From an uncultured Chloroflexota bacterium (GTDB taxonomy: Bacteria > Chloroflexota > Dehalococcoidia > Lucifugimonadales > UBA1127): a stretch of DNA of 64,000 nucleotides. Each line of letters starts with the position of its first letter. Position 1 is the stretch's first letter. Location of the stretch: contig CAJWQJ010000011.1 of the NCBI GenBank assembly GCA_913045315.1, positions 1 to 64,000 on the forward strand, written 5' to 3'. The notes below the pieces were generated by a model that was not told the origin of the DNA, ran no database searches, and saw only the letters and a program-made list of their open reading frames with translations. Positions 5,036 through 44,754 of this stretch are shown here, in pieces. A program made the position numbers and the translations under genes.

Positions 5036-5773
5036 TTATTCTTTCCAGAATCGTTCCTCAAGAACGCTGAAACCTTGTGGTTGAAATTCTTCCTTTACTG
5101 ACTCGATCATTCCTGGATGCCCACAAACGTAAATAGTACTATTATCATTTTTCAAGCCAAATTCTCCGATATATTTTTCTACTATAGAGTTAACTCTACC
5201 ATTTTCGCCTGTCCAATTAATATTTCTTGGATCGTGAGGACGACTAATTGTAGGGATGAATTTTATTGAATTATTGTGTTTTTCTGCTATCTCATATAAT
5301 TCAGAATCATATGTTAACTCGTCAACGTAGCTCGCTCCATATAATATGTAGAATTTGTAATCATCTGTTCCATTTTGAATAAAATCTCTAATTATACTGA
5401 TGTACGGTGCAATTCCCGTTACGGTTGCTACCATGATATGATTTTTGAACTTTGGGGAGAAAGTGAATACTCCTTTTGAAGTTGGTCGAATAGTTACTCT
5501 TTCCCCTTTAAATAGTTCATATAGGAGTGGAGTAAGAACCCCTCCTTCTTCCAAGGGTACTAATTCAACAAATAATTCAAGGTTTTCCTCATGGGGGGCT
5601 GATGCTATTGAATAAGCCCGTTCTACTCCCCCAGATCCAATAGTACAATATTGTCCTGGCTTAAATTTAAATTGTTGGTCTGGTTTCAACCACATAATCC
5701 AGAGATCAGATGTGATTTCTTTACGTTCAATAATAGTTGCTTGAGGCAGTGCTTTTCTCTTTCTTTCCTGCAT
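5036..5773 (-). CDS. Ferredoxin-NADP(+) reductase-like FAD/NAD(P)-binding protein
   Basis: A two-domain flavoprotein of the ferredoxin reductase superfamily, 245 residues. The FAD domain carries RAYSIAS at 52-58. The nucleotide-binding domain carries VTGIAPY at 118-124 (normally GTGIAP) and CGHPGMI at 217-223, and it ends with the aromatic-rich tail ERFWKE. This is the plant/Fpr type, without its own iron-sulfur domain, so it needs an external one-electron partner such as ferredoxin or flavodoxin. It is the last gene of the nuoE-nuoF-nuoG-like cluster, 50 bp after nuoG. That suggests it exchanges electrons between NADPH and the Fe-S clusters of the NuoG-like subunit. The ATG has GGGAG 8 bp upstream. 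Confidence 0.82.
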   Translation of the reverse strand: MQERKRKALPQATIIERKEITSDLWIMWLKPDQQFKFKPGQYCTIGSGGVERAYSIASAPHEENLELFVELVPLEEGGVLTPLLYELFKGERVTIRPTSKGVFTFSPKFKNHIMVATVTGIAPYISIIRDFIQNGTDDYKFYILYGASYVDELTYDSELYEIAEKHNNSIKFIPTISRPHDPRNINWTGENGRVNSIVEKYIGEFGLKNDNSTIYVCGHPGMIESVKEEFQPQGFSVLEERFWKE

Positions 5774-5823: not shown

Positions 5824-8571
5824 TTAAGTAATTTTTTTGATTCGAGCTGGCATGATATCTAAGGTAGATAGTCTAAGAGTTGGTTCGAGATCCGAGCTTT
5901 TGTCCATTTCTGTAACCAATTCCCCGAATAATGCTGTTGAGCTTACTGCTCCTTTCAACGTTCCTGTTAATCTTGCCTTTCCATATTTTACTGAGTAAGG
6001 AGTTGAAATTTCAACTGAATCACCAGGTGCAATTGATAAACTTTTGGCATCATCTGGATGAAATTCTATTGCCTCTTCTCTGCTTATTGCGTTCTTGCGG
6101 CCACTTAATACAATTTCAATATCGGTGTTTGGATCAAAGAGAATTCGACCTGGTATATGAAGAAATGGAAACTCCTTTGATTGTAATGGCGCTTTTTCTG
6201 GGTCGATAGAAAATAGAATTCCCTTTTTATTGGTGAAACCTTTTTCATACATTATTGAAGTTCCGTTAGGAGATTCTTCATTACAAGGCCACTGAATGCC
6301 GTCATTTCCTAAATCTGCTATGTTTATCTGAGAGTAAATATCCATAATATTTTTTATTTCATCAAAAATATCAATAGGATTTTCATTGGAAAATTGAATG
6401 GACGATTGCATCTCGTTTGCTAGTTCATTTATGAATTGGCTAGGAGTTCTTGACTCGCCTCTTGGAGAGACGGCCAAGTTAATTTTTTGGATCCTTCTCT
6501 CAAGGTTAGTATAAGTACCGTTTTGTTCTGCAAATGACGTCATAGGAAGAATAATATCAGCCGTACTTGCTAGATCTGTTAAGAACATTTCTTGTACTAC
6601 GAGAAAATCTAAATGCGATAATGCATGTATGGCATCGTCATTATATAAAGGGCTATCCCCTATTAGAATGGCAGCCTGAATTGTATTAGATTGCATTGCA
6701 GTAAGTGCATCACTTGCTTTAAAACCAGGATGGGCTGGAAGATTATCTGTACCCCACGCATTTTCAAAGTACTCGATATTTTCTTTGTTGGAAACTGATT
6801 TATAACCAGGTAAGAATTCTGGGTGACATCCTACATCCATTCCTCCTTGTTCATTTGTTCCACTACGTAGGGGAAATATTCCAGAATAAGGTTTGCCCAA
6901 ATTTCCAGCTACAAGTGTTAAATTGGAAATTAGTTCTACAGTGTTAGTAGTTTGAGTGCTTGGAATATTGTCTAAAGAGTAAAGTATTGCACTGGAAAAG
7001 CTACTTGCAAAGCTTTCTGCAGTCTTTGAAATGTCTTCAAGTGGCACGCCAGTTAGAACAGAAATATCATCTATATTGATATTGTTTATTGAATCTTTTA
7101 ATTCTTCAAATCCAGTAACATTTTTATTTATAAATTCGTCATCTTGCCAATTGTTTGAAATAATTTCACTTAATATGCCTTTAAGCAATAAATTCTCTGT
7201 TCCTGGATTTGGTCTTAACCAGATATTTGCATATCTTGTTAGTTCAACTTCACGTGGATCGATAACAATAAGATTCAATGTTTGTTGTTGTCTTCCTTTT
7301 TTTAATGGTATGGCTGCAACATTATGCTGTTCGGTGATATTTGCATTAAATACAATTGCACATTCTGAATTTTCAAGTTCTTGTAGTGATCCACTTCCAG
7401 CCATATTCCCTATGCTTTCTTCTAATTTTCGCACCAGGGAATCACCATAAGGAGTTGCCATATCAATATTATTTGATTGCATAATTATTCTTGAAAATTT
7501 TTGAGCGATATATGCATCCTCATTGGTAACTTTAGGGCCCAGAAGCAAAGAAAACTTATCACCAGAATAATTTTTTAATTTTTTTCCAATAATATTGGTA
7601 GCTTCGTCCCATGAAATTTCCTTGTATCCATTTTCATCTTTTAATAAAGGGGATTTAATTCTCTCCTTCGAGTTAATAAATTCCATTCCAAATTTTCCTT
7701 TGAAGCATAGTTGGCCTATATTAGCTTTTGCTTCCCAATTTCCTATGGATCGAATAACTTCTCCTTTTGAATCTACCTCAAGATTTACTTGACACCCTAC
7801 GGAACAATGAGTACAGGTTGTAGGAATTGTTTTTAATGCTTTGTCCCATTTGTGTTCACGTTCAACAAGTGCTCCTACTGGGCATACATCTACGCATGCG
7901 CCACAGAATTCGCATCCTGATTCTAAAAGGGAACTACCATGAGAAGTCCCAACCAAAACAGTCCCTGATCGTTCGATAAGGCTTATAGCACTATCACCAC
8001 GAATTTCATCACATACACGAACACAGCGTGCACATACTATACATAGATTATAATCTCGGTCATAAAAAGGATCGTTGGTATGAATAGGAAGATTCCTGTA
8101 ATTATAAGTTAGGGGTGTTTCCATATTCATATTTGAGTATCGAACTGTATCCTTTAACTCACATCGCTCATTTTTCGGGCAAACTACACATCTGTCTGTA
8201 ACTCTTACATGTCTAAGACATATATCTTGAGGACCACAGAGTTCAATTCTATGACAAGTCAAACACCCATGAGGATGCTCTGAGAGTAATAGTTCTAGAA
8301 TATTATTGCGTAAACCTTCAACTTCACTTGGAGAAGTATTTACCACCATGCCATTTGCTGCAGGCAAGGTGCATGAAGCAGGAGTTCCTCGTTGACCTTC
8401 TACTTCTACTACACACATCCTGCATGCCCCGTATGGTTTCATTCCTGGCCAGTAGCAAAGATAGGGTATATAGATACCAGCATCCATTGCTGCTTGAATT
8501 ACTGTTTGTCCTGGTTGTGCAGTGACTTCTTTACCGTCTATTGTAAGTTTTATTTCCTGATTTTCCTGCAT
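5824..8571 (-). CDS. NuoG/formate dehydrogenase-like iron-sulfur molybdopterin-fold subunit
   Basis: A 915-residue multi-cluster subunit. Cofactor sites in order are a [2Fe-2S] site (Cys 39, 50, 53, 67), a His-Cys cluster region (His 99, Cys 103, 106, 112) and an unusual extra cysteine insert (Cys 118, 128, 131, 137). These are followed by two ferredoxin [4Fe-4S] motifs (177/180/183/187 and 220/223/226/230), the MopB [4Fe-4S] site (253, 256, 260, 289) and the molybdopterin fold to the C terminus. The later part resembles FdhA, but the Sec/Cys-His pair that binds Mo/W is absent: residues 367-380 read NNIDMATPYGDSLV. Electron transfer is therefore more likely than formate oxidation. A longer reading frame begins at 8619. 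I chose the ATG at 8571 because AGGAC lies just upstream and the protein then starts normally. nuoF ends 29 bp upstream. Confidence 0.85.
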   Translation of the reverse strand: MQENQEIKLTIDGKEVTAQPGQTVIQAAMDAGIYIPYLCYWPGMKPYGACRMCVVEVEGQRGTPASCTLPAANGMVVNTSPSEVEGLRNNILELLLSEHPHGCLTCHRIELCGPQDICLRHVRVTDRCVVCPKNERCELKDTVRYSNMNMETPLTYNYRNLPIHTNDPFYDRDYNLCIVCARCVRVCDEIRGDSAISLIERSGTVLVGTSHGSSLLESGCEFCGACVDVCPVGALVEREHKWDKALKTIPTTCTHCSVGCQVNLEVDSKGEVIRSIGNWEAKANIGQLCFKGKFGMEFINSKERIKSPLLKDENGYKEISWDEATNIIGKKLKNYSGDKFSLLLGPKVTNEDAYIAQKFSRIIMQSNNIDMATPYGDSLVRKLEESIGNMAGSGSLQELENSECAIVFNANITEQHNVAAIPLKKGRQQQTLNLIVIDPREVELTRYANIWLRPNPGTENLLLKGILSEIISNNWQDDEFINKNVTGFEELKDSINNINIDDISVLTGVPLEDISKTAESFASSFSSAILYSLDNIPSTQTTNTVELISNLTLVAGNLGKPYSGIFPLRSGTNEQGGMDVGCHPEFLPGYKSVSNKENIEYFENAWGTDNLPAHPGFKASDALTAMQSNTIQAAILIGDSPLYNDDAIHALSHLDFLVVQEMFLTDLASTADIILPMTSFAEQNGTYTNLERRIQKINLAVSPRGESRTPSQFINELANEMQSSIQFSNENPIDIFDEIKNIMDIYSQINIADLGNDGIQWPCNEESPNGTSIMYEKGFTNKKGILFSIDPEKAPLQSKEFPFLHIPGRILFDPNTDIEIVLSGRKNAISREEAIEFHPDDAKSLSIAPGDSVEISTPYSVKYGKARLTGTLKGAVSSTALFGELVTEMDKSSDLEPTLRLSTLDIMPARIKKIT

Positions 8572-8600
8572 TTTTGTCCTCGCTATTATTGCTGGAATAA

Positions 8601-10358
8601 TTATGATCCTGGATACCATCCACTTGATGCAATAGGTCTTGTCCTAGTTGGTCTATGAAATGTTGCAATACAGCTTCCCGTTGGGCATCGATTCTCTTCA
8701 ATATGAATTCTAAAATCCTCACCAAAATATCGTAGTGCTGAGCTTATAGGATTGAACCCCAATTGGCCATGTCCACAGAGAGAGCCTTGAGCCATAGCAT
8801 TTCCTACTATAGGCATTAACTTGAAATCATTTGGTGATCCATTACCAGATGAAATTCGTTCTAAAACTTCTACTAAGTGTGTCATTCCTAGACGACACGG
8901 GAAGCATTTTCCACATGATTCAAATTGACAGAATGCTACTAAGTTTCTTACTAAGTCTACTGCACAAACGGTATCATCACCGACTATGATTCCTCCTGAC
9001 CCTAGAATAGCTCCTGCAGCAGCCATACTTTCAAAATCCAATAGGGTTTCAAGGCTTTCTCTTCCTAAAACTCCACCTAGAGGACCACCTGTTTGAAGTA
9101 ATTTGACAGTTCGATGTAAAGTTGCACCATTCCATTTTTCTGGTGCTCCACCTGATATTTTTTCAACTACTTGACCTATGGTTATCCCAAATGCCACTTC
9201 GTACATTCCAGGGAATTTTACATTTCCATTTAAACATAAAATTGCTGTTCCTGTACTTCTGCCATATCCAATACCTGAAAACCATTCCCCACCCTTTCTA
9301 ATAATTTCTGGTGCATATGAAAGGGTTTTTACATTATTGATATTACTTGGTTTTCCGAATACTCCAACTGCAGCAGGAAATGGTGGTCGAGATCGAGGCA
9401 TAGCCCTTTTGCCCTCTATAGCTTCCATAAGAGCAGTTTCTTCACCAGATACATAAGATTCTCCTACCAATGCTACTTCAAGCTCAAACGAAAAATCTGA
9501 ACCAAGAATATTATCACCTAACAAGTTGGCTTCATATGCTTGTTTGATTCCTTCTCTCGTTCTTTCAATTGGTCCATTATGTCCATGTCGAATAAACACA
9601 TAACCTTTATTTGCTCCAGTAGCAAAACCTGCAATCGCTGCTCCCTCAATCAGAGTATGAGGATCACTTTCCAAAATTCCTTTGTCATTATATGCTCCAG
9701 GATCGCCTTCTTCACAATTTACTAATATATATTTATCAGGTCCTGGTGAATTAACAAGAAAACCCCATTTGATAGCAGTAGGAAATGCTGCTCCTCCGCG
9801 TCCTCTAAGTCCTGAGGTTGCAACTTCATTTCGCACTTCTTCTGGGGACATTGTTGAAATTGCTTTTGATAATCCTTCATATCCTCCAGTTGAAATATAG
9901 TCAAGGATTTCGTTTGGATTGTTTGTTCCACAATTTCTTGTGGCAATTCTTGTTTGATATTTCCATTGAGTCATTTCCTCTATTTGAGGTAGACCATTTA
10001 TGCTTGGACCTCCAAGGGTTCCAAGCACAGATCCAGTAAAATTATTCGAGTTTTCGGAAATTAATTTTATTATCTCATCTATGTTATCTTCGGTTACATT
10101 TTGAAAAAATATCCTAGGCTCTCCAGGTTTTTGGATGTCAACAAGAGGTTCCGCATAACACAATCCTATACAGCCAACTTCATACGCAACAGCAGAAAGA
10201 TCATGACTCTTTATTCTATCTTTTAGTTGGTTTAAAATTTCTAAGGCTCCAACCGATTCACCACAAATTCCCAATCCTACGCGAATTTGAACAGTTGATT
10301 TCAAATCTTCGTTTCTTTTTGTTGCTTTTTGTCTCAGGATTTCAAATTGTTTATTCAC
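8601..10358 (-). CDS. NuoF-like NADH-binding flavoprotein subunit
   Basis: The NADH dehydrogenase module subunit (FMN plus [4Fe-4S]) that takes hydride from NADH. The 585 residues begin with a thioredoxin-like domain (about 25-90, CIGLCYAEP at 63-71). The NuoF core follows, with NAD-binding GRGGAAFPT at 186-194 and FMN-binding NCEEGDPGAYND at 214-225. An SLBB region comes next, then cluster ligands CxxCxxC at 482/485/488 plus Cys 528. The fused N-terminal domain is the arrangement of HydB, FdsB and NADP-reducing hydrogenase subunits, not of 14-subunit complex I NuoF (about 430 residues). No membrane nuo genes are nearby, so a soluble complex with the NuoE-like and NuoG-like neighbours is likely. 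Confidence 0.9.
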   Translation of the reverse strand: MNKQFEILRQKATKRNEDLKSTVQIRVGLGICGESVGALEILNQLKDRIKSHDLSAVAYEVGCIGLCYAEPLVDIQKPGEPRIFFQNVTEDNIDEIIKLISENSNNFTGSVLGTLGGPSINGLPQIEEMTQWKYQTRIATRNCGTNNPNEILDYISTGGYEGLSKAISTMSPEEVRNEVATSGLRGRGGAAFPTAIKWGFLVNSPGPDKYILVNCEEGDPGAYNDKGILESDPHTLIEGAAIAGFATGANKGYVFIRHGHNGPIERTREGIKQAYEANLLGDNILGSDFSFELEVALVGESYVSGEETALMEAIEGKRAMPRSRPPFPAAVGVFGKPSNINNVKTLSYAPEIIRKGGEWFSGIGYGRSTGTAILCLNGNVKFPGMYEVAFGITIGQVVEKISGGAPEKWNGATLHRTVKLLQTGGPLGGVLGRESLETLLDFESMAAAGAILGSGGIIVGDDTVCAVDLVRNLVAFCQFESCGKCFPCRLGMTHLVEVLERISSGNGSPNDFKLMPIVGNAMAQGSLCGHGQLGFNPISSALRYFGEDFRIHIEENRCPTGSCIATFHRPTRTRPIASSGWYPGS

Positions 10359-10368
10359 TTAAAGGGTC

Positions 10369-10845
10369 CTAATCATTTTTTCTTTTAAGTTCTTTATTTA
10401 TTTTTTCTAATATTTTGTCAGTAGATATTGAATGCACTGGGTGATGATTTATTGTTATAACTGGTGCCTGAGAGCACGCTCCTATACAAGTATTATATTT
10501 AAGAGAAACAAATCCATCTTCTGTGTCACCCTCTGATTCAAGAGAAAGGTTATCCTGAACAGCTGAGAGTATTTGTTGTGCTCCCATAAGGTGACAAGTA
10601 GGACCCCAGCAAATTTCAATGATATTTTTTGCTGGAGGCGTAAATCTGAAATTTGTATAAAATGATGCTACAGCCCAAACATCATTAATTGAAGTATCAT
10701 TTTTTGATGCGATAATTTCAATTGCTTCCGTAGGGATAAAGCCACATTCGTCATGAACTGCCAAGAGACACGATAACATGGTGACAGTCTTTTGAGGCTG
10801 AGAATTTATGGCTCGTTGGATCTGGCTTTTTATATCTTCGGCCAT
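10369..10845 (-). CDS. NuoE-like [2Fe-2S] thioredoxin-fold subunit
   Basis: The 24-kDa-type subunit that carries one [2Fe-2S] cluster and pairs with NuoF. The 158 residues are normal length. Ligands are Cys 79 and 84 (CWGPTC) and Cys 120 and 124 (CIGAC). An N-terminal helical bundle precedes the thioredoxin fold. It is the first gene of the nuoE-nuoF-nuoG-FNR unit, with 10 bp to nuoF, and a candidate promoter lies 44 bp upstream. The partner genes support an NAD(P)H-linked diaphorase module. Confidence 0.92.
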   Translation of the reverse strand: MAEDIKSQIQRAINSQPQKTVTMLSCLLAVHDECGFIPTEAIEIIASKNDTSINDVWAVASFYTNFRFTPPAKNIIEICWGPTCHLMGAQQILSAVQDNLSLESEGDTEDGFVSLKYNTCIGACSQAPVITINHHPVHSISTDKILEKINKELKRKND

Positions 10846-34536: not shown

Positions 34537-36504
34537 TTATAATTTTTTTTGGTCATCAATGTCATTTGAGTACTTTGTTTTAGTTGGCAACAATGCAATA
34601 ACGGTTCCTAATATAAATATTGGACCGGAAACCCACATCCAAAAAACAAGTGGATTTATATGGATTCTAAACATGGCTTGATCATCTCTAAATTCACTAG
34701 CTATTAAATAAAAATCTTCAATTGGTGTTGATATTATACCAGCTCGTGCTGATGCCATATTAAAGCCTGGATAGAATACATAACCGGGTTCTAATTTACT
34801 GACAAAAGATCCGTTTTTATACAGATCAATAATTGCTTTAGTTTCTACGCTGTCTGAATTTGTAATAGTTTCATTTGAAATATATTGGATATTATATTCG
34901 CCTAATTTAGCTTGTTGACCTATGGATAAAGAAAAATCTTGTTGTAAGCTGAAAAAAGAAGAACCCGTAACCGAGAATGCTAGTATTACGACTCCGAAAT
35001 GGGCAATATACCCTCCGTATCTTGGTTTGTTAGATAAAAGCAGTTTAATAAATGCTATCGGAAAGATTTCATTATTTCTTTTTGATCGCACAATTGTTCC
35101 TGTAGCCCATTCTCTTAGAATTCCAGTAAGAACAAATGTGCAAGTAGAGAATGAAATAAGAGCAGCAATATTATTTATTTCTAGAATAATACAAATAATT
35201 AGAGTTACTATGCTAATTATTAATGGAGCTATAAACCTTTTCATGATTATCTTGTTATTAAGGTTTTTCCATGGTAATAATGGGCCAATTCCCATAAGCA
35301 CTACCAAGCTGAGGAAAATTGGTCCAGTTAGGGTATCATAGTATGGTTGACCAACAGTCACTACAACACCCTTAAATACATCGGATATTAATGGATAGAG
35401 GACCCCCCAAAGAGTAACGAATGCAATGAGAAGGAATAACAAATTATTTACCAAGAATGATGCTTCTCTTGAAAGGAAAGAATCAATTTGGGAGGCATCT
35501 TTAAGTTTTTTGTGTTTATTATAGAATAAAGTCAACGCTACAATCAGATTGAATCCGAGAAATATTAAGAAGATCCATCCCATCGTGGATTGACCAAAAG
35601 AATGCACTGAAGGTACTGGCCCTCCGCGATTCATAAACATTCCATACATTGCAAATCCCCATGCAAAAATTATGAGGGCAATGTTCCATGACTTGAACAT
35701 ATTTCTTCTTTGCTGAACTATTATAGAATGAATAAATGCAGTTAATGGTAACCAAGGTAGTAAACCTGCATTTTCCACAGGATCCCAAGCCCAGTAGCCT
35801 CCCCAGCCGAGAATTGTATATGCCCACCAAGAACCAAGCATCAATCCGATAGTTAAAATGCACCATATTATTAAACCCCAATAACGTGCAGCTATTAGCC
35901 ACTCATTACCTTGTTCTCCTGATAATAGCTGTCCAATTGCAAATGAAAATGGAATGCCAACTCCTATTAAGCCTGTCATAAGCATAGGTGGATGAAAAAA
36001 CATTCCAGGATGGGTAAGAAGAGGATTCATGCCCCGCCCATCAGCGGGTGTGATAGCTAGTTTCTCAAACGGATTAGCCATAGTGCTCATAACTACAATG
36101 TAAAACAACAATATGAACATAAGAGTTGCAGTTGTATATGGTAATCCTGGTTTGGCAAGATTCGGGCATTTCCAAATAGCGATAGAAGACAATACTGAAA
36201 AGACCCATGCTAAAAATAATAAAGATCCTGCATTCCCAGCATATAAAGCTACCCAAGTTAGTTTTGGGTCAAGACTAAGACTGCTATTATTGGCAACATA
36301 ACTCAGGCTAAAATCATGTGTTACAAATGCGTAGATTAAACATATTGTACTAATTGATAATATTAATGAGGTTATATATGAGGCATTTGTTGCACTTCGT
36401 GTTAATGCTGCAGACTGAAATTTTCCACCAGCAATACTTGAAATAATACTATAGAAGGCAAGTACACCTGCTAACATAAGAGTCATAAACCCTAAGTTGC
36501 CCAT
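34537..36504 (-). CDS. ccmF: Cytochrome c haem lyase subunit CcmF
   Basis: A polytopic membrane protein that attaches haem to apocytochrome c outside the membrane. The 655 residues have about 14 hydrophobic segments. The haem-handling WWD-type motif reads GWGGYWAWDPVENAGLLPWL in the middle, with conserved histidines nearby (LTHPGMFFHPP upstream, MNRGGPVPSVHSFG downstream). The ATG has AAGGA 5 bp upstream and overlaps the ccmH stop by one base. It is linked to the multihaem cytochromes of the act operon, its likely substrates. Confidence 0.93.
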   Translation of the reverse strand: MGNLGFMTLMLAGVLAFYSIISSIAGGKFQSAALTRSATNASYITSLILSISTICLIYAFVTHDFSLSYVANNSSLSLDPKLTWVALYAGNAGSLLFLAWVFSVLSSIAIWKCPNLAKPGLPYTTATLMFILLFYIVVMSTMANPFEKLAITPADGRGMNPLLTHPGMFFHPPMLMTGLIGVGIPFSFAIGQLLSGEQGNEWLIAARYWGLIIWCILTIGLMLGSWWAYTILGWGGYWAWDPVENAGLLPWLPLTAFIHSIIVQQRRNMFKSWNIALIIFAWGFAMYGMFMNRGGPVPSVHSFGQSTMGWIFLIFLGFNLIVALTLFYNKHKKLKDASQIDSFLSREASFLVNNLLFLLIAFVTLWGVLYPLISDVFKGVVVTVGQPYYDTLTGPIFLSLVVLMGIGPLLPWKNLNNKIIMKRFIAPLIISIVTLIICIILEINNIAALISFSTCTFVLTGILREWATGTIVRSKRNNEIFPIAFIKLLLSNKPRYGGYIAHFGVVILAFSVTGSSFFSLQQDFSLSIGQQAKLGEYNIQYISNETITNSDSVETKAIIDLYKNGSFVSKLEPGYVFYPGFNMASARAGIISTPIEDFYLIASEFRDDQAMFRIHINPLVFWMWVSGPIFILGTVIALLPTKTKYSNDIDDQKKL

Positions 36505-37043
36505 TATTCCTTCTCTTTCGTAATATCACTATTAAATTCATGGGTAGTTTTTTCAATAGCTTCTAAGCTTTCCTGAAATTCTTGACTTGACATAAAATCT
36601 TTTGAGATGTGTATTTGTTGATTATTAAATTTCAAAATTGTTTTTGATCGGATAAAAATAAATGTTAATGTTATTCCTACGAGAACTATTCCTATTGGTG
36701 TCCACCAAGCAAAAAGGTGAAATCCTTCTTTAGGAGGGGCAGCAAGAACACTCACCCCATACCTTTCAGTGAAGAAGTTCAATATTTCTTCATCTGATTG
36801 ACCTTTGTCTATCATTTCCCTTACTGCATATTTCATCTGTTTTGCTAATTCAACTTGAGATTGGTCAATTGTTTCACCAGGGCAGATAGGACAAATCAGA
36901 TTTTTATCGATGGCCTGGGCTCTCTGTTCATCAGTTTGTATAACTTGCGATGTTGAACAAGCCAAAGCAGCAAGTGAGACAAAGCAAAATGCAAGGAATA
37001 TAATTTTATGATACAAAGAATTTGATACTAAAAAAAAGTGCAA
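36504..37043 (-). CDS. ccmH: CcmH-type thiol oxidoreductase/lipoprotein for cytochrome c maturation
   Basis: A 179-residue periplasmic-facing protein. The signal or lipobox is LAALAC (Cys29), the redox motif is CPIC at 51-54 (LICPICPGETIDQS, where proteobacterial CcmH has LRCxxCQ), and a single C-terminal membrane helix lies near 110-132. It keeps apocytochrome CXXCH thiols reduced for haem attachment. The reading frame opens at a TTG. No strong Shine-Dalgarno supports it, so the start is uncertain by about ten residues. It is 35 bp after actE and overlaps ccmF by one base. Confidence 0.88.
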   Translation of the reverse strand: MHFFLVSNSLYHKIIFLAFCFVSLAALACSTSQVIQTDEQRAQAIDKNLICPICPGETIDQSQVELAKQMKYAVREMIDKGQSDEEILNFFTERYGVSVLAAPPKEGFHLFAWWTPIGIVLVGITLTFIFIRSKTILKFNNQQIHISKDFMSSQEFQESLEAIEKTTHEFNSDITKEKE

Positions 37044-37078
37044 TTTAAATTACTGCCTAAATTGTGTGGATTCTCGAA

Positions 37079-37639
37079 TTATTTTCCTTGGAGATTCCTC
37101 ACGTGGTTGATTATTAACCATCGCTCATCTTCAGTTAACAGTTGCCTGAACTTTGGCATTACATTGATGCCGTTAGCCAGAATGTCTGCTAGTTCTCCAT
37201 CCGTCTTATCTACTGTTGCTTGTTCAGTAAGATTAGGGGGTGCAATATATCCATAAAGTTTCAAGTATTCTCCGACCCTACCATCTCCTTGAGCTAGACT
37301 TCCGTGACACATAGAGCAGTTTATTCTATATAATTCAGCACCGACCACAGCATTTTCTTCAGTTTCGGAAACTGGATTTTTCAATGATGCGTATTCTTCT
37401 TTAGATCTTATGAGTTCACGACCGGTTGTGGGTACAGCTCCTTCAGGACTGTAAAGCCTTGGAGGTTCTTGTGATTTAATAGATTGCGTATAGTGCATTT
37501 CTGCAGCCCAGTCAATTGGAGCATTACTTCCTGATTTTGCTATACATCCTGTTGTTAATAATGAGATGCCAAGCAAAACTAATATTAATAGAAGTTTCGA
37601 GCGATTATTATATAAGTAGTCGTGAGTTCTTAAGTGCAT
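37079..37639 (-). CDS. actE: Monohaem cytochrome c lipoprotein, ActE-like subunit of alternative complex III
   Basis: A 186-residue lipoprotein: N-terminal hydrophobic stretch ending LLTTGC (lipidated Cys32), one haem site CSMCH at 108-112, and the likely distal Met161 in NVMPKF. It belongs to the class I cytochrome c fold. In alternative complex III ActE is the membrane-attached monohaem subunit that passes electrons toward the oxidase. It lies between the DUF3341 gene actD (5-bp gap) and ccmH, at the position expected in act operons. Confidence 0.88.
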   Translation of the reverse strand: MHLRTHDYLYNNRSKLLLILVLLGISLLTTGCIAKSGSNAPIDWAAEMHYTQSIKSQEPPRLYSPEGAVPTTGRELIRSKEEYASLKNPVSETEENAVVGAELYRINCSMCHGSLAQGDGRVGEYLKLYGYIAPPNLTEQATVDKTDGELADILANGINVMPKFRQLLTEDERWLIINHVRNLQGK

Positions 37640-37644
37640 GATAT

Positions 37645-38154
37645 CTAGGTTGCCTCCAAGTGCACATCAGCAGCATTAGCTTCTTTAAAAATGTTAGATA
37701 TTTTTTCTACATCATCTTCTGGTACATCGACTCCTATTCCTACATATCCCTCAGTAATTCTTGTATCGTATGGAGCAAGCTTTCCTGTTCTCGGTAATCT
37801 AGACTCAAATACAACACCAATGATTGTGAAAAGAATTGCTCCTAGCATTGTTCCTTCATAGCAGATTATGAACATTGAAGGTAATGCAAGAAGTGGCTTT
37901 CCGCCTGTTACTAATGGGTATGCCATTTGAGTACCAGCAGTAATAAGAATTGCAGCTGAAAAACCTAAACATGCACCAATGAAAGGAAATACATAAAGTC
38001 TATGATGAGAAGGTTTTTCTCCGAAAGCACCTTCTGGATATGGAGTACTGGTAAGAACTTCAAAATCCTCAATCCCATTGTCTTTTAGCGAGTCAGCAGC
38101 TGTAACTGCCTCATCAACTTCTTGGAAAACACCTAATATGCTTTTATTTGCCAT
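37645..38154 (-). CDS. actD: ActD-like (DUF3341) membrane subunit of alternative complex III
   Basis: A 169-residue protein with a soluble N-terminal domain (GVFQEVDEAVTAADSLKD, then DFEVLTSTPYP), two central membrane helices (about 55-80 and 95-118) and a soluble C-terminal domain with GIGVDVPEDD. This is the DUF3341/ActD arrangement. The frame extends to a GTG at 38166, but the ATG at 38154 is chosen because AGGGA lies 5-6 bp upstream. It sits between the second NrfD-like gene and actE. Confidence 0.88.
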   Translation of the reverse strand: MANKSILGVFQEVDEAVTAADSLKDNGIEDFEVLTSTPYPEGAFGEKPSHHRLYVFPFIGACLGFSAAILITAGTQMAYPLVTGGKPLLALPSMFIICYEGTMLGAILFTIIGVVFESRLPRTGKLAPYDTRITEGYVGIGVDVPEDDVEKISNIFKEANAADVHLEAT

Positions 38155-38171
38155 AATTTCCCTCACATTTA

Positions 38172-39548
38172 CTATTCTTCACGGAAAACAGCAGGAACAT
38201 TGACTTTCCCAATCCGGATGTGTTGTTCAAATGCTCTACCTTCCTTAACGTCATATATAGGGATTATAGGGAAGAATTTACAGAATGTTACTAATCCCAA
38301 AGTTACCAAAGCGAAACTGCCAATAACTAACATTACCTCAATCGGACTTGGAGCATAATGCCCCCAGGCGAAAGTAAGTGATTGTTTTTTTGCCAAACTA
38401 GGAATGATTAAAATATATCTCTCTAGCCACATTCCAATATTTACAAAAAGTGATGACCAAAACATCATCATGGGGCTTTGACGTACATTTTTCAAAAGCC
38501 AAAGAGGAATAGGCAAGACATACCCAGTAGCCATGAAGATAATGAATAACATATTTCCTGGCCATTCTCCCATTTGCGCGTATCTGAGTGCAATTTCAGC
38601 TGGTTCACCAGTGTAGAAGCCCATTGCAAAGTCAACAACGAGGAAATAGAACCATGCGGTTGCGACAACTACCATTAATCTCGCTAATGCATCAAAGTGT
38701 TCTGGTCTGATATATGATTCCCATCTGAAAACCCACCGTAATACGGCAAGGAAAGTTATAACTGATGCTACTCCTGAGTGAACTGCTCCAATAACAAAGT
38801 ACGGTGCGAATATAGTAGCATGCCAACCTTCGACAGCTATAGCTACAGCAAAGTCCCAAGAAACTATGCTATGGACAGATACGAAAACTGGTAAAATAAG
38901 AGCAGATAGTAATATTCCTGCTATTATTTGAAATTGCCATTGCCTAGCATTTCCTCGCCATCCAAGAGCAGCGAAAGTATAAACTTTATTCATAATGCCA
39001 GTTGTTCTGTCGCGTAATACTGCTATATCTGGTACTAATAAAATAAATACAAACATAATTGTTCCAGATAAGTAGGTGAAAATTGCACTAGGATCCCATA
39101 CAAAAGGGGATCGAATGTCTGGCCAAATGCCCCTTCCAAAGTCGTAAGGGAATACCCAGTAAAGTGTTCGCCATTGTCTTCCTGTATGAAGAACAGGATG
39201 AAGAGCAGCAGTTCCAAGTGCAAACATAGTAAGTACTTCAGCAGCACGAGTTGCTGGTCGGCGCCATTCCGCCTGAGCTAACCTCAAAATAGCAGATAGC
39301 ATAACTCCAGCGTGACTAATTCCAACCCAGAAAACGAAGTTGACTATGATAAAGCCCCACATGACAGGACGGTTTACACCATAGACACCTACACCTTTAA
39401 TGATTGCATATGCTAATGCACCACCAGCCATAGCAACTATTGCACCGCATACAGCGACAACTACAAAAAATCGTAGCTGAAGAGTGAGATTCGGACGCAG
39501 TAAGTCCCTATTTATCTCTCTTTCTGTCAGTTCTACTCTTTGTTGCAT
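38172..39548 (-). CDS. NrfD-like membrane subunit of alternative complex III (ActF/ActC type)
   Basis: A 458-residue integral membrane protein with about ten hydrophobic helices, of the NrfD/PsrC quinol-binding family. Conserved polar positions in membrane segments are typical (GISHAGVMLSAILRL near 76-90, HTGRQWR, and WEMYI/WESYIRPEHFD). It is the second of two NrfD-like genes, 22 bp downstream of the first. In the act scheme one is ActC and the other ActF. By order this is more likely ActF, but sequence comparison is needed to decide. Confidence 0.85.
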   Translation of the reverse strand: MQQRVELTEREINRDLLRPNLTLQLRFFVVVAVCGAIVAMAGGALAYAIIKGVGVYGVNRPVMWGFIIVNFVFWVGISHAGVMLSAILRLAQAEWRRPATRAAEVLTMFALGTAALHPVLHTGRQWRTLYWVFPYDFGRGIWPDIRSPFVWDPSAIFTYLSGTIMFVFILLVPDIAVLRDRTTGIMNKVYTFAALGWRGNARQWQFQIIAGILLSALILPVFVSVHSIVSWDFAVAIAVEGWHATIFAPYFVIGAVHSGVASVITFLAVLRWVFRWESYIRPEHFDALARLMVVVATAWFYFLVVDFAMGFYTGEPAEIALRYAQMGEWPGNMLFIIFMATGYVLPIPLWLLKNVRQSPMMMFWSSLFVNIGMWLERYILIIPSLAKKQSLTFAWGHYAPSPIEVMLVIGSFALVTLGLVTFCKFFPIIPIYDVKEGRAFEQHIRIGKVNVPAVFREE

Positions 39549-39570
39549 CGTTGCTCCTTAACTATGTAAA

Positions 39571-40968
39571 TTAATCTGGTTTTCCAATAACTTTTAATGG
39601 AAGCTTGTGTAAGTTTCTTACTGTTTGGTAAAGCATTCCTTCGCGAATTTCCCAAGTGCTAATAATAGGGATATATCTGATTGCAATTAAGTATAATAAT
39701 ATTGCTCCTGATACTAAGCCAGTAACCATTAGAACATCTGGAAGATCGGGCTTCATTATTGAATCAGGTACGTGATGTAAGGCATGTCCTTTTGCTCCGT
39801 CAGGGAGTGAGAATGAAGCCGTATATATACGTATACAATTAACTAATGAGCCTACAATTACCACGAAACCAACAAGTGATGGACCCCAATCACTCTTTCG
39901 TATCCGATTCCAAATTAGAAATATAAAAGGTATGAAGAAACTTAATACGATATTTAGTATGAAAAGTGGTCTATAAGCACCAAACCAGAAAAGTTGAATG
40001 ATGTTCATTTCGGTTTCGTTTTTCCCATACCAGTAGATAATGAATCCAGACCACCAGAAATAGGCCCAAAGTAATGAGAGAGCAAGTAATATTTTAGCAG
40101 CACTCCAGAATTGATTTATATGAATATAGTCTTTCAAATTACCAAATCTTCTGGCAATAAATGCTGTTACTAGCACTAAGCCCAATCCCGATTGCAATCC
40201 AGAAAGAGCATACCAAGTTGGATATATTGAGTCTCGCATGCCAGGGACAAGACTTTGACTGAAGTCAAAACTGACCATTGTGTGCGACCATATCAACGTT
40301 GCAAAATAAAGAGCACCAAGTACACCATGTGAAGCTCGTAAGCCTCTCCATTGTCGCTTTGAGCCTCTCCAGCCCAATGACAATTTTCCGTATAAGTTAG
40401 CACTTTTTCCATTTACGATATTTTTGTCTCGAATTGCTGCAAAATCAGGAATTGCAGCAGCCCATAATAAAGCTATTCCATTAACAACAAGACCTATCAT
40501 AAGTAATGCAAGCCAAATATGTGGTGCCCCAGGAGGCCAACCTTCCCTGTATTTATCAACAAACCAGAAAGTGTTTCTTCCATCTGCTTCTGGTAAAGCA
40601 AGAAGTAATGGGATCATAACAATTAATAGGAGAACTCCAACTAGAGCCCACAATTCAGCTATCCTGCTAATAGGTCTTCCCCAATGTCCTCGTGCTAACC
40701 TTGGAACGATAGCAAGCATTGGAGCTGACATGGCGAAAAGCATTACAAATCCAAAGGCTGCAGTTAAGTACGCCCAAGGAACGTAATCATCAAAACCATC
40801 CTGGACCTTTATGAAAAAACCAACAATACCTAGTAAAAATAGAAGACCTGTTATTCCTACTGCAAGACGATATTTACTGCCTAGTGTGGCAGACCATCCT
40901 AGCACCTCATTGTTAACTTCTGAGGGTGTTTTTACGGTTATTTCTACTACATGGTGGCTATTTGACAT
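39571..40968 (-). CDS. actC: NrfD-like membrane subunit of alternative complex III (ActC type)
   Basis: A 465-residue membrane protein with about ten hydrophobic helices, NrfD/PsrC family. It directly follows the iron-sulfur subunit gene, with TAATG overlapping by one base, the usual ActB-ActC order. ActC is expected to hold the quinol oxidation site next to the iron-sulfur subunit. It has the family stretches WAAAIPDFAAIRD, GWRGSKRQWRGL and a conserved TMVSFDFSQSLVPG segment. Confidence 0.86.
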   Translation of the reverse strand: MSNSHHVVEITVKTPSEVNNEVLGWSATLGSKYRLAVGITGLLFLLGIVGFFIKVQDGFDDYVPWAYLTAAFGFVMLFAMSAPMLAIVPRLARGHWGRPISRIAELWALVGVLLLIVMIPLLLALPEADGRNTFWFVDKYREGWPPGAPHIWLALLMIGLVVNGIALLWAAAIPDFAAIRDKNIVNGKSANLYGKLSLGWRGSKRQWRGLRASHGVLGALYFATLIWSHTMVSFDFSQSLVPGMRDSIYPTWYALSGLQSGLGLVLVTAFIARRFGNLKDYIHINQFWSAAKILLALSLLWAYFWWSGFIIYWYGKNETEMNIIQLFWFGAYRPLFILNIVLSFFIPFIFLIWNRIRKSDWGPSLVGFVVIVGSLVNCIRIYTASFSLPDGAKGHALHHVPDSIMKPDLPDVLMVTGLVSGAILLYLIAIRYIPIISTWEIREGMLYQTVRNLHKLPLKVIGKPD

Positions 40969-41735
40969 TAATGTTTACCATGTCCTTCCTCTGTTGCGTG
41001 TTTATCAACCTTTTTTAGGTAATATACACTTGGGAATGTGCCCACATGCTCCAGAACTTGATAGCTTCTTTCATCATTTTTCATTGCATGAACCTTACTA
41101 TCTTCGTCTTTAAGATCCCCAAATACTAGAGCATCAGTAGGGCAAGCTTGTACACATGCTGGATTGATGTCACCGTCAGCAAGTGGAATACCAGACTTGG
41201 CAGCATCCCGTCCTGCTCTTCGTATTCTTTGCACACAGAAGGTGCACTTTTCCATGATGCCTCTACTTCGGATACTCACGTCAGGGTTCAATTGGTTTCG
41301 AAGTGATTCTGGCCATACTGGTTCCCAATAATTGAAGAAACGAACGTTATAAGGGTCGTTGTTAGCACAAAAACGAGTACCAATACATCGATTGTAAACT
41401 TGTACGTTTAAACCTTCATTATTGTGATATGTTGCATATACAGGACATACCGGTTCACATGGTGCACTGTCACAGTGTTGACAGAACATGGGAATGAACC
41501 TTGCTTTGGCATTTGGGAATTCTCCTTCCCAGTAGCGCTCAATCCTTATCCATTGAACTGCACGCCTTTGAAGGAAGTCTCGATCATCGTTTATTCGAAC
41601 ATTGTTTTCTGACTGACATGCGACAACACATGCCTGGCAACCACTACAACGATCAATATCGACCACCATCCCATATTTTTTTTCAGTTCTTGTTTTAAGT
41701 ACCATTACTTCCTCTTCAGCTTCATCATGACTCAT
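40968..41735 (-). CDS. Iron-sulfur subunit (ferredoxin half of ActB) of alternative complex III
   Basis: A 255-residue poly-ferredoxin of the PsrB/NrfC type. Cysteines are 30, 33, 36, 40; 85, 88, 93, 97; 117, 123; 164, 167; 194, 198. The third motif reads CIGTRFCANNDPYNVR. Thr120 stands where a fourth cysteine could be, as expected for a [3Fe-4S] site, and Asp127 replaces the usual cysteine of CANNCP. In Rhodothermus and other act systems this domain is fused to the ActB molybdopterin-like domain. Here it is a separate gene, 13 bp after that domain's gene. Confidence 0.88.
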   Translation of the reverse strand: MSHDEAEEEVMVLKTRTEKKYGMVVDIDRCSGCQACVVACQSENNVRINDDRDFLQRRAVQWIRIERYWEGEFPNAKARFIPMFCQHCDSAPCEPVCPVYATYHNNEGLNVQVYNRCIGTRFCANNDPYNVRFFNYWEPVWPESLRNQLNPDVSIRSRGIMEKCTFCVQRIRRAGRDAAKSGIPLADGDINPACVQACPTDALVFGDLKDEDSKVHAMKNDERSYQVLEHVGTFPSVYYLKKVDKHATEEGHGKH

Positions 41736-41748
41736 TTCTACTATACCT

Positions 41749-43986
41749 TTAATGATTTGTAACTTGTACTACAGGAAATCCCGGTAGTGCTCGTGCTTCC
41801 ACAGCACCTTCACTCTTCGGTAAACGTTTTCTTGAACCGGTGGGTGTCAGACGAACTTTTGTAGCTCCCCAAGCCAATGCACCGGAATTCTTTTCTTCAA
41901 TTGGAGAAAGGATGGAAAGCACGTTCGATCCTCTATCTGTTGCATATCGACCATATCCCTTGTGTCCCTGTCCGATTGGAATGCTTAATACCTCAGGAGA
42001 AGTTGCAGGATGTATATATATTTTTGCATCTATTGAACCATGAGAAGATTCAATGGTAACTATATCTCCTTCTCTTAAACCAAGTTCGGAAGCCTTTGAT
42101 GGGTTAATTTCAACCCAAGTATCCCAAACTGCTGTAGATATTGGATCAGGAATTCCTTGAAGCCAAGGTAGGTGTGCTCCACTTCCTTCACCAATTCCCT
42201 GAGATTCAAATGGTAGAAGGTGGAAAGGATAGTTTTGTGATGAGCCAGAAAATTCAGGATCGCTAATAGCACCTAATTTGTTAATCACATCAGAGTTTAA
42301 GGAAAATTCTACACTTGCTTTGTTCTGAATGTCCCACCAGCCACCATTTTGAAGGAGACTAACCCAGAATAAATCAAAACTTCCATCGTCTTTCGTTACC
42401 AAGTTACCTCGATTTTCATTTAACGAAATTGATTGTAAAGTCTTAGCGTTTTCAATTACACCAGATTTTACTGAATCCCAGATGGGTTTTTTGCCTAGAC
42501 GATCAGTAATTGTAAGTAATACATCTCCGAAATCAGCTGAATTCGTTTCTGGCATCACTATGGGTTGTTGCACGCCAATTGTTTGGTATCCTGGGCCTGG
42601 TTTGCTCACATTTAAATTCCATGATTCCAATGAAGTATGATCTGGCAGTATTAGATCTGCTTGTGCAGTAGTTTCATCCATAAAAGTTGAGAAACTGACA
42701 ACATACGAGACAGATTCCAAAGCATTTTTAAAATTTAAGCTTTCAGGTAATCCATAAACTGGATTTGCATTATGTATAAGGGCAAGTTTAACCTGTCCAT
42801 TTTTCATTGCATTTGAAATATCTCCCCACTCAGATATGGTGGTAGTATTACTTTGAGTGATTAAGTCTGTTAAAGGTGCTTCAGGATTGAATTGAATTCC
42901 CCCTGACTTCCCAATATTACCAGCGAGTGCATTAAGAAGGTAAATAGCAGTAAGGTTTTCTTCACCGTTTGTATGTGCACCAGCTAGTCCAGCTCCGACA
43001 ATAATTGCAGGCGAATTATTTGTAATAGAGTGTGCTATATCTTTAATGTGCGAAAGGCTAATTCCTGTTTTTTGTTCTACATTCTCGATAAGACTTGAAC
43101 GAACGCTAGAAGTAAGAACCTTTGATACAGCTGAAGATGCCTCAGGATCTCCACTTCCTTCATCAATAATAATAGAAGCGATTGTCAGGGCAATTACACC
43201 TTCACTTCCAGGTTTATTGTAGAACCATTCATCAGCATTTGCTGCAGTTAGGGAAAGGCGAGGTTCAATATGTACTAATGTTCCTCTTTTGTCTCGAGAA
43301 TGTCCTTGTCTGAAATTCCCATATTGCCAACTATTAAAAACAGAGTTGCTCCATGTGCCTAAGAAATCTGCACCAAATGAAAGTATATAGTTCGAATTTT
43401 GAAAGTCGAAATTGGGTAGTTGATTTTGACCGAATACATTATTAATAGCAAGCATTAAGTTCGTGTTTTCAAGAGATTCAAAAATGTGATGATCAAGTTT
43501 GTGGTCTTTAGCAAACTGATTGACTACCTTATGTCTAATACTAGCGTCAGGACCAGTTATTATAGCTGCGTTCCCGGAAGCATTTTTGACTTGAGTTGAA
43601 AGTGTTTCTATTGCCTCGTCCCAAGTAATACTTTGGAAAGAGCCCCCTGTCTTTTTCATTGGTCCATTAATTCTGTCGGGGTGATAAAGTGATTGTAGCG
43701 ATGCTTCAGCCCGAGCGCTATGTTTGCCTCTGCTCGTTGGATGGGCAGGATTACCTTCAACTTTCTTGGCTCGTCCCTGCATGACTCTTACGAGAACGGA
43801 TTCGTATCCACTACTTGTATTTACGAAAGTTGCATAGTGGGCTTCTGTTCCTTCTACTAAATCTTCAGGTAAGTCATGGGGACTTTCAATAATGAACTCT
43901 TCTTCAGGAACTGCACACCCAGCAAAGAGTATGGCTCCTAAGCCCATTCCCGACATTTTTAATAATTTTCTTCTACTTAGATCCAT
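41749..43986 (-). CDS. Molybdopterin-oxidoreductase-like subunit without cofactor site (large half of ActB)
   Basis: A 745-residue protein with an N-terminal Tat signal (SRRKLLKMSGMGLGAILFAGC), giving export and possible lipidation at the Cys. The molybdopterin oxidoreductase fold follows, with NPAHPTSRGKHSARAEASLQSLY where catalytic relatives have a CxxC-type [4Fe-4S] site and GKxCARG. The cysteines are gone, so no cluster or molybdenum is expected, as known for ActB. A dinucleotide-binding-like C-terminal domain contains NPSKASELGLREGDIV. It is downstream of actA by 18 bp and upstream of the iron-sulfur half by 13 bp. Confidence 0.88.
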   Translation of the reverse strand: MDLSRRKLLKMSGMGLGAILFAGCAVPEEEFIIESPHDLPEDLVEGTEAHYATFVNTSSGYESVLVRVMQGRAKKVEGNPAHPTSRGKHSARAEASLQSLYHPDRINGPMKKTGGSFQSITWDEAIETLSTQVKNASGNAAIITGPDASIRHKVVNQFAKDHKLDHHIFESLENTNLMLAINNVFGQNQLPNFDFQNSNYILSFGADFLGTWSNSVFNSWQYGNFRQGHSRDKRGTLVHIEPRLSLTAANADEWFYNKPGSEGVIALTIASIIIDEGSGDPEASSAVSKVLTSSVRSSLIENVEQKTGISLSHIKDIAHSITNNSPAIIVGAGLAGAHTNGEENLTAIYLLNALAGNIGKSGGIQFNPEAPLTDLITQSNTTTISEWGDISNAMKNGQVKLALIHNANPVYGLPESLNFKNALESVSYVVSFSTFMDETTAQADLILPDHTSLESWNLNVSKPGPGYQTIGVQQPIVMPETNSADFGDVLLTITDRLGKKPIWDSVKSGVIENAKTLQSISLNENRGNLVTKDDGSFDLFWVSLLQNGGWWDIQNKASVEFSLNSDVINKLGAISDPEFSGSSQNYPFHLLPFESQGIGEGSGAHLPWLQGIPDPISTAVWDTWVEINPSKASELGLREGDIVTIESSHGSIDAKIYIHPATSPEVLSIPIGQGHKGYGRYATDRGSNVLSILSPIEEKNSGALAWGATKVRLTPTGSRKRLPKSEGAVEARALPGFPVVQVTNH

Positions 43987-44004
43987 ATAATTGAAATTCC
44001 TAAG

Positions 44005-44754
44005 CTAGTAATGACAAGTAGTACAGTCAGTAGGAGCACCGTTGTCCCTGTGACACTCTACGCAAAATCCCATTTTTAGTTCTTTTACCTGTTCAACACG
44101 TTCCATTGTTCCAACTTCTCCGTGACATAATGTACATACTGCAGATGCTGGAACGTTATCTTTCTCGCTAAAATAGCTTATGTGAGCTTCGTGAACGAAC
44201 CTTACATGATCTGGCATCCTGTGTACTCTTACCCACTGGATGGTTTGATTATTTTCCCATGCATCCAGGACTTTTTTAACACCTGGCAGGTCTTTGCCAA
44301 CTACTTGATGGCAGAACATACACTGTTCAACGGGGGGAACGCTAGCCATTGCTTCAGAGTCTACAGTGCTGTGACAAAACACACAATCAATCTGACCTTT
44401 TTGAACATGTGAAGTGTGTGGGAAGTCTATAGGTTGCTCAACAGTAGGTAGATAAAACTTATCAAAAGCCCAAACATAATGGCCTAAAAGTTTTGTTCCT
44501 ACGAGAGTTCCTCCAGTAACTACTAGTATAAACGCAAAAGTGCCCATTAAGGCTACTATCCATCCATTATTGCCTGACGGAATGCCTGGAGCTTTGTAAG
44601 CTAGTGCAGCTCCTGCAATACAGACCCAGAGAATTATCAATACAGATATTACAATAGTTATTTCGGGTCCGAGTTGAATAAAGCCTATGCCCATTCCTAT
44701 AAGGAGACTGGCAGTGACAAGTATTGCAGCTAGTGGTAGTAAAAATATTATCAT
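44005..44754 (-). CDS. actA: Pentahaem cytochrome c, ActA subunit of alternative complex III
   Basis: A 249-residue membrane-anchored cytochrome. Two or three N-terminal hydrophobic helices (about 1-26, 33-53, 66-90) are followed by five CXXCH haem sites at 124-128, 145-149, 207-211, 231-235 and 244-248, plus additional His ligands (PHTSH, HRMPDHVRFVHEAH). ActA normally has one membrane helix, so the longer hydrophobic N terminus is notable. It overlaps the preceding 64-residue gene by 4 bp. Confidence 0.92.
   Translation of the reverse strand: MIIFLLPLAAILVTASLLIGMGIGFIQLGPEITIVISVLIILWVCIAGAALAYKAPGIPSGNNGWIVALMGTFAFILVVTGGTLVGTKLLGHYVWAFDKFYLPTVEQPIDFPHTSHVQKGQIDCVFCHSTVDSEAMASVPPVEQCMFCHQVVGKDLPGVKKVLDAWENNQTIQWVRVHRMPDHVRFVHEAHISYFSEKDNVPASAVCTLCHGEVGTMERVEQVKELKMGFCVECHRDNGAPTDCTTCHY

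Follow-up and report, generated by a model that had tools for sequence, protein, structure and literature searches.

A formate dehydrogenase-like protein without its metal ligand, encoded beside NuoE and NuoF in Chloroflexota, as a probable carrier of NADH electrons

The locus and its closest relatives

The window analysed here comprises 64,000 nucleotides of contig CAJWQJ010000011.1 (assembly GCA_913045315.1) from an uncultured bacterium of the Chloroflexota order Lucifugimonadales, and its minus strand carries a gene for a protein related both to the alpha subunit of formate dehydrogenase (FDH) and to NuoG of complex I. This protein, referred to here as FDHL, has lost the residues that hold the metal in FDH; it is probably not to be read as a formate-oxidising enzyme but as a protein that passes on NADH electrons, perhaps to the respiratory chain. 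The genes are arranged in the order NuoE-like, NuoF-like and FDHL, followed by a gene for a ferredoxin-NADP reductase-like flavoprotein (FNR), and their features are summarized in Table 1. From the first ATG at 8619 the open reading frame of FDHL spans 5824-8619 on the minus strand and encodes 931 residues; the sequence GAGG at 8581-8578 is located six bases 5' of the ATG used in Table 1. In its draft state, the window genome consists of 32 contigs and has a completeness of 89%.

Table 1. Coordinates of FDHL, its sites and the adjoining genes in the window
Feature	Positions	Strand	Remarks
FDHL (FDH-alpha-like, ligand-less Fe-S/NuoG-like subunit)	5824..8571	-	915 aa from ATG at 8571
[2Fe-2S] N1b-like ligands C39-C50-C53-C67	8371..8457	-	PF13510; Cys in 63/63 rows
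First block H99-x3-C103-x2-C106-x5-C112, His-Cys [4Fe-4S], N5-like	8236..8277	-	PF10588; 22/22 ligand-less clade rows
Second block C118-x9-C128-x2-C131-x5-C137, candidate extra [4Fe-4S]	8161..8220	-	22/22 clade rows
Two FDH/HydA-type [4Fe-4S], C177-C180-C183-C187 and C220-C223-C226-C230	7882..8043	-	PF22117, PF12838; alignment
[4Fe-4S] adjoining former molybdenum cofactor site, C253-C256-C260-C289	7705..7815	-	PF04879; 63/63 rows
Relaxed molybdopterin-domain remnant	5956..7662	-	PF00384, PF01568
MATPYGDS loop at former Sec/Cys-His site, ligand column deleted	7438..7461	-	Residues 371-378; alignment
NuoF-like	8601..10358	-	PF01512, PF10589; FMN and N3-type cluster; N-terminal ferredoxin-like region
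NuoE-like [2Fe-2S] subunit	10369..10845	-	PF01257
Ferredoxin-NADP reductase-like flavoprotein (FNR)	5036..5773	-	Directly downstream of FDHL in the window and at some clade loci

From its N-terminus, FDHL comprises a [2Fe-2S] domain, a His-Cys region, a double [4Fe-4S] domain of the FDH/HydA type, a further [4Fe-4S] site and a molybdopterin-fold half, in which the dimethyl sulfoxide reductase superfamily fold is matched by PF00384 with 167 bits (cut-off 24). The protein scores 495.2 bits against the FDH alpha family TIGR01591 and 331.7 bits against the NuoG family TIGR01973, in both cases below the cut-off (666.25 and 470.05 bits), and its closest solved structures by sequence are the FDH alpha subunits 9wxb and 6tg9 (E = 4e-137 and 3e-135). 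The original prediction, made from the DNA letters, had described a NuoG with an FDH-like molybdopterin half. The likeness to FDH is borne out by these scores and structures; the name NuoG is supported by the gene neighbourhood but not by the family score.

Fds-type FDH has NuoE/NuoF-like partners. The alpha subunits of this NAD+-dependent type (FdsA; 6tg9 and 9wxb) align with residues 6-869 and 3-871 of FDHL, respectively, and are alike in full-length domain order and Fe-S chain. FDHL differs from them in the absence of the selenocysteine (Sec) or Cys with its His, in a relaxed molybdenum cofactor (Moco) domain, and in an extra block of four cysteines that is unaligned with either structure. 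NuoG of the 14-subunit complex I, which has the molybdopterin fold without catalysis, resembles FDHL in its N1b and His-Cys (N5-like) sites and in its NuoE and NuoF partners, whereas FDHL is set apart by the FDH/HydA-type double [4Fe-4S] domain, the extra block, a score nearer FDH and, in the window genome, a location apart from the nuo genes. In Desulfitobacterium hafniense, an Fds-type operon annotated as nuoEFG was considered to encode a genuine FDH and was not counted as part of complex I (PMC11238625). Because the catalytic residues are gone in FDHL, that argument for exclusion is weaker here, although the opposite is not thereby proved.

Loss of the metal ligand and relaxed constraint in the molybdopterin half

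FDHL matches were found in 218 of 245 sampled genomes of the class, and this pool was the source of the aligned rows. The 63 rows are best-scoring and hand-picked loci together with six loci of named metagenome-assembled genomes (MAGs), and they form a non-random sample. Not retained were the proteobacterial loci L039-L041, which are partial and show about 27% identity, the second pieces of L063 and L078, the copy of the window gene at L003, and small loci superseded by longer ones. The tree was obtained by a quick search with the insert and loop columns excluded, with support from the Shimodaira-Hasegawa-like approximate likelihood ratio test (SH-aLRT) only. Relatives are termed catalytic from the sequence alone, where it contains a Sec/Cys-His pair.

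Ligand-bearing rows typically read NNIDHCARL(U/C)H, with U denoting an in-frame TGA, where FDHL reads NNIDMATPY-GDS. The Sec/Cys column is a gap of one residue in FDHL, and the loop contains no Cys, Sec or His, as had been predicted. The same gap is found in 22 of 22 rows of one clade, comprising the window gene, genes from 15 other genomes of the same order and the six named MAGs; in the tree they are separated from all other rows by a branch with an SH-aLRT support of 100, one of them (L053) being a long branch of unsure placement. The ligand loss is thus confirmed, and it is common to this clade and not peculiar to the window protein. Two clade members have a ligand-type residue in the loop, one Cys at the Asp position in L036 and one His in L046, neither of which is common to other rows. 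A conserved Cys or Sec displaced to a nearby position was also searched for. The candidate C404 is Cys in 12 of the 22 ligand-less and 25 of the 41 other rows, and this variability shows that it is not a displaced ligand; no conserved one was found. The column of the active-site Arg of FDH has Arg in 5/22 clade rows versus 32/41 other rows; the window protein keeps it as R569.

Outside the clade, in-frame TGA or Cys is still carried at the ligand column (27 of the 63 rows). The nearest ligand-bearing kin are Sec/Cys FDH-like proteins of Chloroflexota (L013, L022, L026, L028 and others) that have the same architecture and the same insert and that keep the TGA or Cys, the His and the Moco signature, from which their activity is presumed. 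In a further 14 rows outside the main clade (L062, L065, L066, L068, L069, L071-L076, L079-L081) the ligand is replaced by F, M, S, D, A or a gap, which suggests that the Mo site was lost more than once in the family. At least four changes of ligand state are required over all 63 rows; the count gives no direction, and the ligand-bearing forms are taken to be ancestral from what is known of FDHs. L057, L058 and L059 have Cys at the ligand column and keep 0.66-0.72 of the Moco-signature positions, and in L057 and L059 the residue after the Cys is Pro and not His. These three could possibly represent half-dead stages. Within one family, Sec-His, Cys, non-ligand residues and deletion can be lined up as a series.

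The conservation pattern of the two halves differs between the clade and 22 Sec/Cys-His rows. Mean pairwise identity is higher in the clade for the His-Cys/insert region (0.86 vs 0.57) and the double-cluster domain (0.75 vs 0.52), whereas it is lower for the first Moco part (0.42 vs 0.61) and the active loop (0.36 vs 0.78). Near-invariant positions were defined on the Sec/Cys-His rows, 150 in the Moco domain and 46 in the Fe-S half. In the clade, 18 of the 150 Moco positions are kept at ≥90% and 43 are kept in <20%, versus 34 and 2 of the 46 positions in the Fe-S half. With leave-one-out as a control, retention of the Moco positions was 0.85-0.99 in the Sec/Cys-His rows and 0.22-0.68 in the clade rows, whereas the Fe-S half was kept to a similar degree in both (0.80-1.00 and 0.83-0.98); the distant paralogues L060 and L061 still keep 0.85 of the Moco positions. 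Since the Fe-S half is conserved and the Moco half relaxed, selection appears to maintain electron transfer in this protein and to have ceased to act on Mo chemistry. In L054 and L055 the Moco half is strongly diverged (0.28 and 0.22 kept) and all 23 cluster cysteines are present.

The second cysteine block

The extra cysteines lie directly after the His-Cys block, at the positions first noted (118, 128, 131 and 137), and the two blocks together read H-x3-C-x2-C-x5-C-x5-C-x9-C-x2-C-x5-C. They are conserved and not scattered, as each of the 23 cluster cysteines, like His99, is retained in 22/22 rows of the ligand-less clade. From this cysteine conservation it is plausible that the second block binds one more [4Fe-4S] cluster. 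A PDB search with the double-block region (E ≤ 10) matched 11 sequences, and in none of them did the best-matching segment cover both blocks. AlphaFold2 with seven sequences gave models of poor quality, with a mean predicted local distance difference test (pLDDT) score of 47.4 over the full length and 40.7 for residues 1-250, with the insert below 40 in both.

Both blocks are complete in all 36 rows without ligand and in 22 of the 27 Cys/Sec rows; the other five ligand-bearing rows comprise two with a plain single block, two without the region and one with Thr at position 118. Because 22 of the 27 ligand-bearing rows carry the double block, the insert would be older than the ligand loss and most likely came down from relatives that still had the ligand. 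The same count rules out the original suggestion that the insert was gained together with the loss.

A NADH module and its electron acceptor

Loss of the metal-holding residues together with retention of the cluster cysteines argues for a role of FDHL as a carrier of NADH electrons. The ligand loss and the conservation pattern support the earlier proposal that an FDH gave rise to an electron-transfer subunit, and a non-catalytic role of this kind is highly probable. In the mechanism proposed here, the former FDH alpha subunit without its Mo/W site would act as the Fe-S wire of a NADH-oxidising module made of NuoE, NuoF and FDHL. NADH would reduce the flavin mononucleotide (FMN) of NuoF, from which electrons would pass through N3 to the [2Fe-2S] cluster and then the [4Fe-4S] chain of FDHL. 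They might leave by the His-Cys cluster and the adjacent four-cysteine site, and their preferred acceptor would be the 11-subunit complex I of the organism. The three genes adjoin in 20 of 21 other clade loci, and L038, on a short contig, shows NuoF and FDHL only.

A precedent is provided by StnC of the Stn transhydrogenase from Sporomusa ovata, which combines an inactive FDH-like domain with NuoE/F-type partners, as FDHL does by sequence. PDB chain 8oh5_C, which we take to be StnC, has the 1172 aa stated for that protein and matches FDHL best over residues 123-582 only. The catalytically inactive FdhF domain of StnC is described as working as an electron conduit (PMC10482914), and an inactive FdhF-type domain can therefore serve in this way. 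A conduit made from a dead FDH would thus be of a known kind, and its link to complex I is a prediction.

In the window genome, complex I is encoded by an 11-gene run, nuoABCDHIJKLMN, that lacks EFG, and the sole NuoF match is that of the FDHL operon. Among 17 genomes of the order, 13 (the window genome included) have exactly one NuoF match, located in this operon, three have a second copy and one (G136) has none. NuoD was matched in 56 of 56 genomes tested, and FrhB_C, indicative of an FpoF-type input, was found in none of the 17. In two Sec-bearing relatives, G018 and G021, nuoE-nuoF-fdhA lies within about 3 kb of the 11 nuo genes on the same strand; among the loci examined, fdhA was near nuo genes only in these two. 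Complex I is favoured as the acceptor because NuoEF needs an exit, complex I has no N-module genes of its own and two relatives show the neighbourhood. If FDHL is an electron-transfer subunit, complex I is slightly better than an even prospect as its acceptor, and the combined reading, an ex-FDH Fe-S subunit that forms a NADH module with NuoEF and preferably feeds complex I, is evenly poised. It may be proposed more tentatively that an FDH alpha subunit without metal site has, with NuoEF, become a second-time N-module of complex I that replaces NuoG across a Chloroflexota order, with the extra cluster beside N5 as the exit and with ligand-bearing, half-relaxed and ligand-less forms alive in relatives. 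A search for NDH-2, which E. coli has, gave no match over cut-off in the 17 genomes; the E. coli control was also unmatched, so that this result is weak and was not used.

Several observations weigh against complex I as the outlet. The FDHL operon and the nuo genes are on different contigs in the window genome, and 18 complex I stretches of 12-20 kb, taken from 13 genomes of the order, gave no match to NuoE, NuoF or FDHL. In G018, fdhA is separated from nuoA by NfnA-like and GltD-type genes, and in G021 two genes of seemingly unrelated function, for a UDP-sugar dehydrogenase and a PIN domain, sit between nuoE and nuoN. G136, of the same order, has two complex I places, no NuoF match and no FDHL match at E 1e-40. 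The presence of FNR beside FDHL in part of the clade suggests NADPH or ferredoxin as a partner instead, and complex I could receive its electrons from ferredoxin or some other donor. The donor of the 11-subunit complex I of D. hafniense is described as still debated, with ferredoxin and other candidates (PMC11238625), and an FpoF-like F420 module has been named as donor for complex I of cultured Dehalococcoidia (PMC4959651).

The main rival to a link with complex I is a soluble NADH/ferredoxin/NADPH shuttle or transhydrogenase similar to Stn, in which a separate FNR would replace the GltD-type NADPH domain. StnC carries such a domain, whereas no such Pfam match is present in FDHL or in the NuoF of the window. 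FNR is the gene directly downstream of FDHL in the window, it also follows FDHL at 10 more loci, and one match is present in each of 14 of the 17 genomes; it adjoins FDHL in seven of these but is located elsewhere in the other seven, and it was not found in G239 and G147, both of which have FDHL. G136, without NuoF and FDHL, is also without an FNR match. The SR and GR residues, which presumably have an NADP role, are conserved in 11/11 FNR rows. GltD-type modules occur near fdhA in G018 and fused to NuoF in G021; a NuoF-GltD-type fusion of 1028 aa is encoded at L106:3635-6721, with a Sec FDH and genes of complex I close by. PntB was not found in the window genome, which favours a shuttle, but it is present in 10 of the 17 genomes of the order. 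HydB of the bifurcating HydABC complex has a C-terminal ferredoxin domain, whereas the Pfam scan gave no Fer4 match in the 585-aa NuoF of the window. Because this NuoF has no Fer4 and seven clade NuoFs (L044, L051-L056) have no cysteine in the examined N-terminal stretch, bifurcation appears unlikely. The StnC precedent is shared by the shuttle, which as a whole we regard as rather unlikely.

It is considerably less probable that FDHL still binds Mo or W through bis-molybdopterin guanine dinucleotide (bis-MGD) without a protein ligand and catalyses another reaction. Arsenite oxidase holds bis-MGD Mo without a protein ligand. Full loss of the fold is opposed by PF00384, well over its cut-off, and by PF01568, which is just over its own in FDHL and was matched in 10 of the 12 scanned members of the clade and in all 9 scanned Cys-bearing relatives; however, PF01568 reaches 27 bits in FDHL against 114 bits in the Cys-bearing L015. 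MoeA is present in the genome, and the window protein keeps R569 and Lys291 of CFKGKFG, the latter being Lys or Arg in 20/22 clade rows. Beside the deleted column, Arg (13/22), Pro (16/22) and Asn (14/22) recur, but the loop holds no conserved residue of a metal-ligand type. The collapse of Moco-domain constraint speaks against metal binding, as does the His of the HTGTMTR-type segment, which is near-invariant in Sec/Cys-His rows and kept in 0/22 clade rows. FdhD was found in none of the 17 genomes of the order, five of which encode a PF00384 paralogue containing a single in-frame TGA, and in 16 of the 56 genomes tested, including G058, G065 and G089, whose aligned FDHL row is ligand-less. Since same-order genomes with the in-frame-TGA paralogue lack FdhD too, its absence is weak evidence and was dropped as proof of no FDH activity. 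An artefact of sequencing, assembly or alignment is hardly credible, for despite the draft state of the window genome the same gap occurs in 22 rows from different genomes and records in one clade, and the 16 same-order matches are free of internal stops.

If FDHL does carry NADH electrons to complex I, it would be a candidate NADH donor for the 11-subunit form. FDH and NuoG are related, and the series of ligand states is informative about the way in which complex I came, or may come, by its NADH module. Oxidation of C1 compounds or formate has been inferred for SAR202, to which the window genome may belong judging from its Chloroflexi-named relatives, from formate dehydrogenase genes (PMC5395668, PMC5864207, PMC11245477). 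The published genes are not equated with FDHL here, but such genes should first be checked for the metal ligand. No prior description of the ligand-less clade was found in titles and abstract starts among the matches listed from the open-licence PMC literature. A search of plasmid records gave 638 matches (15 listed), all with identities below 60%.

The organism has SelB, as the original prediction stated: the gene at 161-2026 passes TIGR00475, and a tRNA-Sec match of 62 bits (gathering score 47) is present at G000:C9:44691-44781 of the same genome. The genome holds two PF00384 genes, FDHL and a QrcB/ActB-like one, neither with an in-frame TGA, and its Sec machinery may therefore be used by some other selenoprotein. 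The QrcB/ActB-like gene, at 41749-43986 and under its family cut-off, encodes a subunit of an alternative complex III cluster at 34537-44754 (ActD, NrfD, Fer4, cytochromes), with CcmF/CcmH adjoining. This subunit, in the same window, shares with FDHL the molybdopterin fold and an electron-transfer cluster, but it belongs to a different family and complex and has no adjoining NuoEF.

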